Assembly (NCBI GenBank): GCA_944324465.1
Contig: CALUWI010000008.1
Coordinates: forward strand, 1 to 64,000
Direction: 5' to 3'
DNA length: 64,000 nucleotides
Origin: an uncultured Mucispirillum sp.
GTDB taxonomy: Bacteria > Chrysiogenota > Deferribacteres > Deferribacterales > Mucispirillaceae
Of the stretch, positions 1,575 to 62,142 are shown piece by piece. The notes under the pieces were generated by a model. The model was given only the letters and a program-made list of their open reading frames with translations. It was not told the origin of the DNA and did no database searches. The position numbers and the translations under genes are program-made. Within the stretch, counting starts at the first letter, position 1. Each line of letters starts with the position of its first letter.

Positions 1575-1728
1575 TTAGTATCAATAATAACATAAGATTA
1601 TTATAATATATGGCTCATATGTAATTAAAAAACATTGTTAACATTTATAAAAATATTTATATTTTTTAAATAAAGTAATATTAGGATACTTTCAATAGAA
1701 CAATGAAGTGTTGCAAGTAAAATTATAA

Positions 1729-22317: not shown

Positions 22318-22390
<73 letters not shown>

Positions 22391-22398
22391 CTTCTTTT

Positions 22399-22425
22399 AA
22401 GCCTTGCATAAGCAAGGCTTTTTTT
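22399..22425 (+). terminator. terminator of tRNA-Asn
   Basis: AAGCCTTGC (22399-22407) and GCAAGGCTT (22412-22420) form a nine-bp stem with an ATAA loop, followed by five T. Confidence 0.9.
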
Positions 22426-22545
22426 ATGTCTTGAATTATGTTTCTTAATTCTCTTAATTATATTTTTATAATATTTTAGTTTTAATAAAATACTTCCTTT
22501 TATTTTTTTGCATAGCTGATAAGTTATAAGATTTTAATTAATACA

Positions 22546-22616
22546 CAGCCGATATAAATATTTAAATAATATAAAAATGCTTTAGCAGATTTATAAATTT
22601 ATATCGCTGATTTTTT
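22546..22616. terminator. A/T-rich hairpin, possible end of the micro-peptide transcript
   Basis: CAGCCGATATAAAT (22546-22559) pairs with ATTTATATCGCTG (22597-22609) apart from one mismatch, and ATTTTTT follows on the plus strand. On the minus strand it lies about 100 bases downstream of the 22710-22796 micro-ORF. Its true direction is unclear. Confidence 0.4.
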
Positions 22617-22709
22617 ATTTTTGATGTATAAATAGCAGGACTATAAATATATACTTTTTAATTATAAATCAATAAAACAGGATTTATAAGTCAAAATATA
22701 AGTTTTGTT

Positions 22710-22796
22710 TTATCCTTTTATAATATCTAATAATAAATTAGCAGCAGATAATATAACAATAAGAATTAATAATATAGTTCTTTGTTTTTCACTCAT
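22710..22796 (-). CDS. putative 28-residue membrane peptide (micro-ORF B)
   Basis: An ATG at 22794-22796 opens a 29-codon frame ending at TAA 22710-22712. The predicted peptide begins MSEKQRTILLILIVIL and continues as one hydrophobic helix ending with DIIKG, that is, a charged start, one membrane span and a short charged tail. AAGGG lies ten bases upstream, a weak ribosome-binding site. It is downstream of micro-ORF A on the same strand. Small single-span peptides like this include type I toxin family members. The function here is inferred only. Confidence 0.4.
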   Translation of the reverse strand: MSEKQRTILLILIVILSAANLLLDIIKG

Positions 22797-22808
22797 TTTC
22801 TTTTACCC

Positions 22809-22837
22809 TTGACAATATCACGAAGAAAGGTTAAATT
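22809..22837 (+). promoter_or_regulatory. candidate antisense promoter opposing micro-ORF A
   Basis: On the plus strand a perfect TTGACA (22809-22814), a 17-base spacer and TAAATT (22832-22837) would start an RNA near 22844 running antisense through micro-ORF A and its ribosome-binding site. AGCTCTC (22891-22897) and GAGAGCT (22954-22960) followed by a T-run (22964-22970) could end it. This is a prediction, with a weak -10. Confidence 0.35.
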
Positions 22838-22883
22838 ATGGGTAGAGATGCAGGGCTTTCATACCCCGCACCTCAAAAAAGTT

Positions 22884-22976
22884 TTAGTTTAGCTCTCTTA
22901 CAAGCCTTATAATCTCAATGATTGCTAGCACAACCATTGAAACATCGGCTAATGAGAGCTTTCTTTTTTTACCCAC
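22884..22976 (-). CDS. putative 30-residue membrane peptide (micro-ORF A)
   Basis: A GTG at 22974-22976 is preceded seven bases away by AAGGAGG (22984-22990), the best ribosome-binding site in this kilobase, and by a near-consensus promoter. The frame has 30 codons plus TAA. The peptide starts MGKKRKLSL (basic), has a hydrophobic core VSMVVLAIIEIIRLV and ends RELN. Basic N-terminus plus one amphipathic or membrane helix recalls holin-like and type I toxin peptides, but there is no family match I can assert. An antisense promoter is predicted on the other strand. Confidence 0.55.
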   Translation of the reverse strand: MGKKRKLSLADVSMVVLAIIEIIRLVRELN

Positions 22977-23020
22977 TTTCTAACCTCCTTCGTTTATTTT
23001 AGCTTTACAGCCGATTATTA

Positions 23021-23049
23021 TTTATATCATAAAAACCCTTATTTATCAA
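23021..23049 (-). promoter_or_regulatory. strong promoter of micro-ORF A
   Basis: On the minus strand TTGATA (23044-23049), a 17-base spacer and TATAAA (23021-23026) lie about 45 bases before the micro-ORF A start, giving a short leader with the AAGGAGG site. Confidence 0.6.
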
Positions 23050-23253
23050 TGTCTGTTATAATATTTTAAGGTTTTTTATATAGTTTGACCTTGTATTCTT
23101 TAAGAAAACATTAAACATTGTTCAAATATATTATTATTAATAAAAAGAGCAGTGATTTTTCACATGTTTAGCATATATATTATTGAGTATATAGGTATAA
23201 GTTAGAATAAAAGCATTTCTTTATTTTAAGTATAATATCATGAGAGTCTTACC

Positions 23254-23406
23254 ATACATTACAGATTATCGAAAAAATACATTTTTCGCCAGTCTTTTGC
23301 CAGCCTAATAATGCTCTCTAGCCACTTTTTCTTATTCCTCCTTATTCAGTCGGGCGTAGTGTCCTTGTAAAAAACACTTGTCACATTTTATTAGGCTGTA
23401 ATGTAT
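23254..23406. repeat. nested palindromic element sharing a 59-bp segment with 61.8 kb
   Basis: ATACATTACAG (23254-23264) and CTGTAATGTAT (23396-23406) are perfect outer arms. CAGCCTAATAA (23301-23311) and TTATTAGGCTG (23388-23398) are perfect inner arms, and a third small palindrome (CGAAAAA/TTTTTCG) sits at 23270-23288. The loop (about 23321-23379) is, on the opposite strand, nearly identical to 61801-61858, including GGACACTACGCCCGACTGA. No protein frame is convincing. The flanks (23050-23253 and 23407-23486) show nothing recognisable. Confidence 0.65.
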
Positions 23407-23486
23407 ATTACTATACATTATCCATTTTAAGCAGCACAGTTTTTATAATAATTTAAACTTAAATTTTAAAAATTTTACAGTGCTTT

Positions 23487-23774
23487 TTATTTATAATAAT
23501 CTTCCAGCTTTATGCCTTCAAAATATAATAAATCTGTAGAAATATCTGTATTATCATCCCAAGTAACAGAGCCGCAGCTTATATAGCATTTAGAAAAAAG
23601 TCCATGGTCTTTTAAGTGATTAAATACAGGGGCAGAAAGATAAGGCTTAAAATCAAAAATTTTAGTTTCCCTGCTTGAAAATGTAACTTTCAGCATATAG
23701 TCGCTTAAAGCAGTAACTGCTGTAACAGTTATAATCGTTTTTGCACCAGTTTCAGTATGTTTTTTCCTGTTCAT
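23487..23774 (-). CDS. DUF2442 family protein
   Basis: The 95-residue protein matches the DUF2442 pattern: VTAVTALSDYMLKVTFSSRE, then KIFDFKPYLSAPVFNHLKD, then CGSVTWDDNTDISTDLLYFEG. DUF2442 proteins are small, often encoded next to a DUF4160 protein in pairs that resemble toxin-antitoxin modules. No DUF4160 partner is present here. The region where a ribosome-binding site should be is an uninterrupted run of ten G, ending five bases before the ATG, with an in-frame TAA directly before it, so the frame cannot extend upstream. Confidence 0.85.
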   Translation of the reverse strand: MNRKKHTETGAKTIITVTAVTALSDYMLKVTFSSRETKIFDFKPYLSAPVFNHLKDHGLFSKCYISCGSVTWDDNTDISTDLLYFEGIKLEDYYK

Positions 23775-23779
23775 AACAG

Positions 23780-23789
23780 CCCCCCCCCC
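23780..23789 (-). repeat. G10 homopolymer in the ribosome-binding region of the DUF2442 gene
   Basis: Ten consecutive C on the plus strand (G on the coding strand) lie five bases before the ATG of the DUF2442 gene. Such a tract is exceptional in this A/T-rich sequence and is the type of tract that changes length by strand slippage. From 23790 to 24008 the sequence is A/T-rich leader for the divergent MATE gene with no clear motif. Confidence 0.7.
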
Positions 23790-24008
23790 TTAATACCATA
23801 AATGTATTTAAGAATAAACCAGCTTGTAATATATTATATAAATATTTTTAATAATAATCTATAAATATTTAAATAATCGTATATTATTATTTTTTTATTA
23901 GAGATTTTTACAAATTATACTTTTTTTAAAATACTTCTTTACAATAAAATTTGTTTTTTGTAGTGTATGTAGGCTTGATTAAATCATATTTTTTTTACAG
24001 GGTGATAT

Positions 24009-25415
24009 ATGAAAAAAGATTTAACAGTGGGAAGTCCTTTAAAATTAATCATTTATTTTACAATTCCATTATTAATAGGCAACCTTTTACAGCAGTTATA
24101 TAATACAGCAGATACAATGATAGTTGGCAGAACAATAGGCTTTAATGCATTAGCTGCTGTTGGTGTTACTGGTGCATTAGTATTTTTTGTTATAGGGTTT
24201 GCTCAAGGACTTACAGGTGGTTTTTCTATTATCACGGCACAAAAGTTTGGCAATAAAGATGAGGCAGGGGTAAGAAAAAGTGTTGCATCATCTTTTATAT
24301 TATCATTTATAATCAATATTGTTTTAACATTATTAAGTGTTATTCTTGCCGGCTGGCTTCTGCATGTAATACAAACACCTGATGAACTTTATGATAATGC
24401 ATATAAATATATAGTTATTATCTTCTGGGGCACAGGGGCGGCTATTATTTTCAATCTTTTTTCAAATATGTTAAGAGCCATAGGCAATTCAAAATGGCCT
24501 TTATATTTTTTAATAATCGCCTGCATTGTCAATATAGTATTGGATTATCTTTTCATACTTTCTTTTAATATGGGGGTAGCAGGTGCAGCATTAGCTACAG
24601 TAATTTCCCAAATAACAGCAAGTCTTTTATGCTTTGAATATATAAGAAGATATGTGCCTGAGCTTCAGGCAAAAGGCAGTGACTGGAAAGTTACTAAGCA
24701 GGACTTATGGGAGCATATAAGAGTAGGCATACCAATGGCTGTACAGGTAGCAATTATTGCTATTGGTATAGTAATATTACAGTGGGCATTAAACAAACTT
24801 GGAGCATTAGCTGTAGGTGCTTTTACAGTGGCACAGAGAATAGATGTGCTTGCAGTGCAGTGCCTTTTATCTTTTGGTATTACTATGGCAACATATACCG
24901 CCCAAAACTATGGTGCAGGTGAGATTCCAAGAATAAGGCAGGGGGTAAGGCAGGGCAGTATTGTTTCTGTTGCATTTGCTGTAATAAGTGGTATATTAAT
25001 ATTATTAGCAGCAGATTTTTCTGTAAGATTATTTTTAGGTAAAAATATAACTGACCCAGCACAGATAGAAGAAACTATCCGCCTTGCAAAAGTATATTTA
25101 ACTATTAACTGCTCTATGTATGTATTTTTAGCACTTCTTTTAGTATTCAGAAGCACACTGCAGGGGCTTGGTAATAGTATTGTTCCAACATTTGCAGGTG
25201 TGATGGAGCTTATTATGCGGACAGTTGCCGCAATAATACTTTCTGCATATATTGGTTTTGCAGGTATATCCTGGGCGAGTCCTATTGCATGGGTTGGTGC
25301 ATTTATACCAGTTTTTGCAGCTTATTTTTATATTATAAAAAGGCTTATGCGTAAATATGAAATAAAAAAAGCAAGGCAGAAACATGCAGAAAAATTAAGG
25401 GAGGCAGCATTATGA
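24009..25415 (+). CDS. MATE family efflux transporter
   Basis: The 468-residue inner-membrane protein has twelve predicted helices and the family signature near the start, TIPLLIGNLLQQLYNTADTMIVG. It resembles the DinF/NorM-like branch, which exports cationic drugs or metabolites in exchange for sodium or protons. Substrate cannot be predicted. The last four bases overlap the next gene (ATGA). The C-terminus is a basic cytoplasmic tail. Confidence 0.93.
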   Translation: MKKDLTVGSPLKLIIYFTIPLLIGNLLQQLYNTADTMIVGRTIGFNALAAVGVTGALVFFVIGFAQGLTGGFSIITAQKFGNKDEAGVRKSVASSFILSFIINIVLTLLSVILAGWLLHVIQTPDELYDNAYKYIVIIFWGTGAAIIFNLFSNMLRAIGNSKWPLYFLIIACIVNIVLDYLFILSFNMGVAGAALATVISQITASLLCFEYIRRYVPELQAKGSDWKVTKQDLWEHIRVGIPMAVQVAIIAIGIVILQWALNKLGALAVGAFTVAQRIDVLAVQCLLSFGITMATYTAQNYGAGEIPRIRQGVRQGSIVSVAFAVISGILILLAADFSVRLFLGKNITDPAQIEETIRLAKVYLTINCSMYVFLALLLVFRSTLQGLGNSIVPTFAGVMELIMRTVAAIILSAYIGFAGISWASPIAWVGAFIPVFAAYFYIIKRLMRKYEIKKARQKHAEKLREAAL

Positions 25416-61557: not shown

Positions 61558-62142
61558 CTGGTAGTACCCCATTTTTTTATAATAATACTAATAACTATAT
61601 AATAATTAAAATAAAATATTTACTAGAATTAAAAATAGAACTTAAAAATTATTATATATTAATATGGCATTATATCCGCTTTTAAATGATGTTCCCCTGT
61701 TATTTTATTACCTTTGCGACTTAATTGTATATGAACAATTTTTTCGGAATGATTTGCTGACAGAAAGTTTTAAGCGATAGCGAGTTGCTGCAGCAATGCG
61801 AGTGTTTTTTACGAGGACACTACGCCCGACTGAGTAAGGAGGAAATAAAAAAAGTGGCTGATAGAAAAAATTGAGAATGTTTATACAATTGGAGCAAAAA
61901 TACAGGAAGTATTTTCTTCAGCAAGCATATGCGAATTTATTTCGGATATGCGTGGTTATAAAAATTCAGGGATGAATTTTTATATAAAAGTATAATAGGT
62001 TTTAAAATAACAAAAAATTTGATATATGAGATTTGCGGCGGTAGGATAGTTTAAAATATACTACAAATACATAAATAATAATTACTAAGTTTATTATAAA
62101 TCATAATTTTTAATCATAGTTTAAAAAATGGGGATAAAGCAG
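61558..62142. mobile_element. enlarged mosaic copy of the palindromic MITE
   Basis: The left end (61558-61579) differs from the 22-bp end of the 1.7-kb MITE by one base, yet the interior from about 61609 matches the 30.3-kb copy nearly base for base. The right end (AAAAAATGGGGATAAAGCAG) is of the 30.3-kb type. Two insertions enlarge it: about 61800-61865, the 59-bp segment also found at 23321-23379, and about 61900-61995. ATATAAT flanks both sides (61550-61556 and 62143-62149). It fills the space between the acetyltransferase and flgH. Confidence 0.7.

Follow-up and report, generated by a model that had tools for sequence, protein, structure and literature searches.

The window, a stretch of 64,000 nucleotides on contig C8 of a 2.42-Mb genome from the genus Mucispirillum (phylum Deferribacterota), holds a compact module in DNA that carries no annotated gene; the locus lies within roughly 1.6 kb, with tRNA-Asn (22318-22391) on one side and a MATE-like gene (named by eye) at 24009 on the other. 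A sequence-only reading had pointed here to two overlooked minus-strand frames of 30 and 28 residues, and to a near-consensus promoter and an AAGGAGG motif ahead of the GTG start of the first; we found both frames open and both signals present. The first frame, P1 (22884..22976, minus strand, MGKKRKLSLADVSMVVLAIIEIIRLVRELN), encodes a 30-aa candidate membrane toxin with its Shine-Dalgarno sequence AAGGAGG at 22984..22990 on the same strand, 7 nt before the GTG, and the sense promoter, TTGATA (23049-23044)-N17-TATAAA (23026-23021), occupies 23021..23049 (minus strand), placing the predicted mRNA start at ~23014. P1 is predicted to form a single helix over residues 9-29 (pLDDT 90) and has the properties of an amphipathic peptide of <60 aa (net charge +3, H 0.59, muH 0.35); we model it as a cationic helix probably inserted in or on the inner membrane. 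The second frame, P2 (22710..22796, minus strand, MSEKQRTILLILIVILSAANLLLDIIKG), encodes a 28-aa single hydrophobic helix (KD19 2.8).

Facing P1 on the plus strand is a second promoter, TTGACA (22809-22814)-N17-TAAATT (22832-22837), spanning 22809..22837, which the same reading had noted and which is one of three 10/12 matches in 2.6 kb. As promoter-like matches across these 2.6 kb numbered 21, compared with 16.8 ± 4.5 in shuffles, promoters alone would prove nothing. The predicted antisense RNA, a candidate antitoxin of ~128 nt (22843..22970, plus strand, ends approximate), would finish at a plus-strand terminator-like hairpin with arms AGCTCTC (22891-22897) and GAGAGCT (22954-22960) and a T-run, TTCTTTTTTT (22961-22970), all of which read in the sequence as had been described. 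This RNA had also been expected to be complementary to both the coding and the initiation region of P1; the coding region is indeed covered, but the predicted end at ~22970 falls within codons 2-4, and the Shine-Dalgarno sequence is therefore left uncovered.

The predicted minus-strand RNA (22690-23022) has a folding energy of -97.7 kcal/mol, compared with -61.2 ± 4.7 in shuffles (z = -7.7), with the core of the transcript reaching z = -9.9. This strong fold is due to a long helix in which CGAAGGAGGUUAGAAAGUGGGU, carrying the Shine-Dalgarno sequence and start, pairs with ACCCAUAAUUUAACCUUUCUUCG, which lies ~140 nt further downstream; between the two strands of this helix sit a hairpin in P1 and another in the 3′ UTR. 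The 3′-UTR hairpin (GAGGTGCGGG / CCCTGCATCTC, 22842..22875, minus strand) is the complement of the 5′ hairpin of the antisense RNA, and the anti-Shine-Dalgarno/anti-start arm, ACCCATAATTTAACCTTTCTTCG (22820..22843, minus strand; partner at ~22970-22993), is contained in the spacer of the antisense promoter.

The sequence-only reading had suggested searching related genomes for similar micro-ORFs in the same arrangement, and we identified ten other loci, giving 11 copies (the window's and 10 more) in 3-4 diverged subtypes across 7 of the 10 species-level Mucispirillum genomes. The three genus genomes with no copy have completeness values of 57%, 75% and 86%, and the remaining 41 of the 51 phylum genomes yielded no copy with search models trained within the genus. 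A DNA search recovered closely similar copies (85-86%) from G001 and G005, together with a broken one from G006 and, from G003, the 3′ portion of a distantly related one; matches to the promoter part elsewhere led to subtype B (MGKKEKIALLTKILETVTAVIKLLKELL). A covariance model built from subtype A, R1, found two more copies, one in G007 (MGILKKLKIANQVLRLLATILKLIKLAKELI, with a TTG start) and one in G009, the latter representing subtype C, in which MGKQKRKLLTWKRLTLLVIIVDLIKSIMEL is followed by a P2 homologue. Homologous P1 peptides are present in 7 genomes, with a decapitated extra copy in G006, a subtype A locus whose promoter and P1 start have been lost or replaced and whose antisense unit is whole. 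Loss of both frames in relatives, which the reading had named as evidence against itself, was not what we observed: P1 is open in all intact copies, and P2 stays open in them as well, with subtype B having no P2.

Several other matches from these searches were set aside. The antisense-promoter pattern in Firmicutes, other bacteria and viral contigs came without the fold and looked like ordinary promoters, except at L089 (3827-3999), where a contig of 4.4 kb, assigned by binning to an "uncultured Bacilli bacterium", carries a subtype-B copy; this may be a misbinned contig or a mobile or transferred module. A match in G002 (E 0.022) lacks P1 and falls at the start of a gene that, by eye, looks like endonuclease III, protein matches in G013 and G041 (E 0.4-1.5) were taken as chance, and a plus-strand 24-aa frame in the window (22838-22912) is, by eye, not kept in G005. 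Plasmid and phage records queried with the window, subtype-B and G003b DNA returned no relevant match. In G006 (L012, ~1165-2340), we additionally observed an IS30-like insertion (named by eye) at the P2 start, with a short target duplication.

Both promoters are kept in all ten copies scored (the window's and nine others), the sense promoter with its 17-nt spacing and the antisense promoter as TTGACA-N17-TATATT or TAAATT. Every intact copy keeps the Shine-Dalgarno sequence and an (A/G/T)TG-GGT start, the 3′ hairpin, and an antisense terminator-like hairpin inside the P1 ORF, the stem of which is retained in subtype B with altered sequence; for the predicted antisense RNA, promoter, terminator and full complementarity are conserved in the 10 loci. 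In subtypes A, B and C, the sequences show that the Lys codons following ATGGGT form, on the opposite strand, the antisense terminator T-run, which would explain the MGKK of P1.

The fold is likewise conserved, with sense-strand z scores between -8.1 and -10.9 across the eight intact copies examined. In 9 of 9 intact copies folded, the Shine-Dalgarno and start hexamer is predicted to pair with a distant 3′ arm, whose sequence varies by subtype (CCTTTCTTCG, GCATTCCTATT, CACTTTCCTATTTT) with pairing kept. When 9 copies were aligned jointly, with the structure of subtype A guiding the fit, 91.7% of cells were paired, compared with 36-47% when partners are slid, and 25 pairs had two-sided changes, compared with 14.3 ± 2.2 in shuffles (0/500); such changes affect 8 pairs in helix 1 (the anti-Shine-Dalgarno arm) and 6 in helix 6 (the 3′-UTR hairpin). 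The unfitted subtype A alignment has 99.1% of cells paired, with variation too low to exceed shuffles (93/500). In silico removal of the 3′ arm freed the start codon in 7 of 8 copies (0.51-0.99 unpaired; 0.15 in G003b), while two cases, subtype B (0.22 unpaired) and the window copy (0.34), kept the Shine-Dalgarno sequence partly masked. It is the fold z scores of the window's transcript and its core, together with the conservation of elements in ten other loci, that raise the locus above chance.

These data also bear on which strand carries the function. G-U cells outnumber A-C cells by 52 to 18 on the coding strand, an excess that points to selection acting on the fold of the peptide-coding strand, although the cells do not count as independent events, which makes its p value optimistic, and the structure itself comes from the sense strand. 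If the functional product were instead the plus-strand RNA, as a structured small RNA acting in trans, with the minus-strand ORFs incidental, one could understand why no element is kept better than the plus-strand promoter and terminator, which persist in G006 despite the lost P1 start. The sense strand, however, folds far better than the antisense (-86 vs. -55 kcal/mol), the G-U/A-C asymmetry favours it, and Shine-Dalgarno sequence, start codon, open frames and P2 codon bias are all conserved, so that we consider a small RNA of this kind very unlikely.

We find it harder still to credit that the locus is a palindromic, MITE-like mobile repeat whose inverted arms give the fold and whose peptides arise by chance. 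The arms are indeed similar to one another in inverted orientation (CGAAG..AGGTTA..TGGGTA), copies lie at different places, and a true hairpin repeat is found nearby at 23253-23405; against this, there are only one to three copies per carrying genome, the arms diverge with compensation, promoters and ORFs are kept, and locus boundaries differ between subtypes.

The P1 frame spans 28-31 codons, with in-frame length changes between subtypes, and ends in ...EL(x) (termini ELN, ELL, ELI or MEL across copies); only five residues are invariant, and what is kept is the character of a cationic N-terminus followed by one amphipathic helix. Substitution counts for P1 are 4.5 synonymous vs. 4.5 replacement differences between G000 and G001 and, within subtype A, up to 9 synonymous vs. 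4 replaced codons (G001-G006), with fewer for other pairs. As P1 overlaps RNA constraints, its conservation alone is modest, and support therefore comes mainly from the frame, start and length class persisting across subtypes. For P2, we counted 7 synonymous vs. 4 replacement differences between G000 and G001 (over 18.7 and 65.3 sites, P = 0.004), 9 vs. 4 between G001 and G006 (P = 0.0004) and 4 vs. 2 in a further pair; by these pairwise comparisons, which are not independent of one another, P2 is under purifying selection. Matches to a P2 profile in the phylum are confined to P1 loci (G000, G001, G005, G006 and G009), with weaker matches, mostly within long frames, taken as chance. P2 lies outside the predicted antisense RNA; it may act as a second toxin, or as a partner peptide with an immunity-like function.

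The surroundings of the copies are in several cases plasmid-like or prophage-like. Four subtype-B copies come after a gene for a ParA-like ATPase, with a sigma-70-region-4 gene facing them; the subtype-A copies of G001 and G005 also have a gene of this second type next to them. The G003b copy adjoins an endolysin and a weak spanin match, and a baseplate protein and a HicB-like antitoxin are encoded near the one in G009 (neighbour families were tested on L069, L010, L013 and L066, with the remaining copies assigned by similarity). The window copy is chromosomal and adjoins a tRNA, with no adjacent mobile gene. In G006 we also noted a further tiny hydrophobic frame, MKKYHKILLILIGILVILSIINLII (L015, ~1615-1690, minus strand), with no family match, in the interval that separates the subtype-B locus from the ParA-like gene.

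Such neighbours, among which holin-like or partition helpers are also plausible, would suit a different role for the peptides, namely that P1 and P2 are RNA-regulated, non-toxic small membrane peptides that modulate a membrane complex or serve plasmid or phage functions, their dose being set by the mRNA lock and antisense RNA already described. The clear purifying selection on P2 and its position outside the antisense RNA speak for this as well. A strong translational lock together with a dedicated antisense RNA is, however, typical of peptides that are harmful when freely made; P1 diverges fast in sequence with constant physical character, and both the patchy presence of the module and the decayed P1 start in G006 fit toxin modules. 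We accordingly rate the non-toxic role as unlikely, if worth keeping in view.

We instead favour a type I toxin-antitoxin-like module, which the sequence-only reading had proposed and which the recurrence of the architecture in 10 loci, several by plasmid-like or prophage genes, supports; on the sequence evidence, we hold this to be quite likely. We infer transcription, processing, RNA-RNA inhibition and toxicity of the module as follows. A sigma-70-type promoter would produce a ~330-nt mRNA encoding P1 and P2, which at full length would be inert, with its Shine-Dalgarno sequence and start paired to the arm ~140 nt downstream. By analogy with AapA and Hok, trimming of the 3′ end would free the Shine-Dalgarno sequence and start codon. 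The second promoter would give the ~128-nt antisense RNA over the P1 coding region, which would pair with the opened mRNA, block translation and lead to mRNA degradation, probably via RNase III. Upon loss of the antisense RNA (e.g., with a plasmid or prophage), toxin mRNA would remain and P1 would be made, depolarising or stopping the cell. The folding models suggest that the main translational lock is the 5′-3′ interaction within the mRNA rather than antisense cover of the Shine-Dalgarno sequence.

Searches for known families gave no match to these components. Four distinct P1 and two P2 sequences had no Pfam or NCBIfam match at E<=10 (including Hok, Fst, Ldr, Ibs and others), and Pfam TisB_toxin (PF13939) left P1 unmatched while recovering the positive control TisB at 2.5e-9. 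PHROG returned no match for the module peptides, and in Rfam 15 only tRNAs scored above the gathering score, with sub-threshold matches unrelated.

In its predicted anatomy, the module most invites comparison with AapA/IsoA of Helicobacter and Campylobacter, which shares with it a ~30-aa peptide, a short mRNA, several copies per genome, a Shine-Dalgarno sequence locked by a 5′-3′ long-distance interaction and a cis antisense RNA nested opposite the ORF (PMC6733600). The full-length 225-nt AapA3 mRNA is inert through its 5′-3′ interaction and a 3′-trimmed form is translated; this trimmed form goes undetected if the antisense RNA is produced (PMC6733600). Unlike in AapA/IsoA, the antisense promoter here lies in the 3′ UTR and itself includes the anti-Shine-Dalgarno arm, there is a P2, and the phylum is different; the conserved C-terminal Lys-Arg of AapA (PMC10537873) is also absent from P1 in all copies, a separation made on described features. 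Hok/sok similarly opens translation through 3′ processing and mRNA refolding and is plasmid-associated (PMC8309996), but Hok has ~50 aa, its translation is coupled to mok, and its RNA is not homologous (no Rfam match). The Bacillus yonT-yoyJ/SR6 system likewise has two small peptides on one mRNA with one antisense RNA (PMC5848175), although SR6 overlaps the yonT 3′ end and, through its 5′ end, yoyJ downstream, whereas the antisense RNA predicted here lies over the first peptide, with P2 outside it. TisB of TisB/IstR-1 resembles P1 as a 29-aa charged amphipathic membrane helix, with a structured 5′ region in the system (PMC8309996). By analogy, the module would work like AapA/IsoA and hok/sok, yet it fits no family definition by sequence.

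Judged from these comparisons, it most likely represents a type I family that is new and may be the first found in Deferribacterota. Some DNA stretches appear to do double duty, with the antitoxin-promoter spacer also serving as the anti-Shine-Dalgarno arm and the toxin Lys codons as the antitoxin terminator U-tract. For the full description, a new family that is the first in Deferribacterota and combines two peptides, one locked mRNA and such double-duty stretches, we see the case as evenly balanced. A 2025 paper places type I systems, before its own cyanobacterial case, only in Proteobacteria, Firmicutes and Tenericutes, and blames similarity-based searches for this narrow range (PMC12390103). 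A module that has no similarity to known families and shares their anatomy would therefore extend the type I range to another phylum, suggesting that structure (a locked start with a nested antisense promoter) can find modules that sequence misses. In a search including few subscription journals, no type I system was apparent from the titles and abstracts of literature naming Mucispirillum together with toxin-antitoxin, and no paper was found joining type I toxin-antitoxin with Deferribacter-. Mucispirillum is a model commensal of the mouse gut that becomes round bodies as it ages (PMC10535455), and AapA1 is described as driving the spiral-to-coccoid change in H. pylori (PMC8108984); taken together, and by analogy, these make a link between the module and round bodies a concrete question.

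The DNA at the site itself differs in other genus members, making the locus a variable site: the interval after tRNA-Asn (22392-24000) is occupied by ~890 bp of other DNA in G003 and by an 8.4-kb stretch in G006. Within it lies an orphan DUF2442 gene (23487-23774, minus strand, E 3e-11), beside which no partner gene was seen. The sequence-only reading had called the surrounding kilobase repeat-rich, which holds mainly for the hairpin-forming MITE-like repeat at 23253-23405 (inverted ends ATACATTACAG..CTGTAATGTAT). This repeat is also found in most genus members and recurs, as full ~145-bp copies or 54/59-bp parts, at ~14 other places in the genome, such as a 59-bp part at 61801-61859 that is 92% identical.
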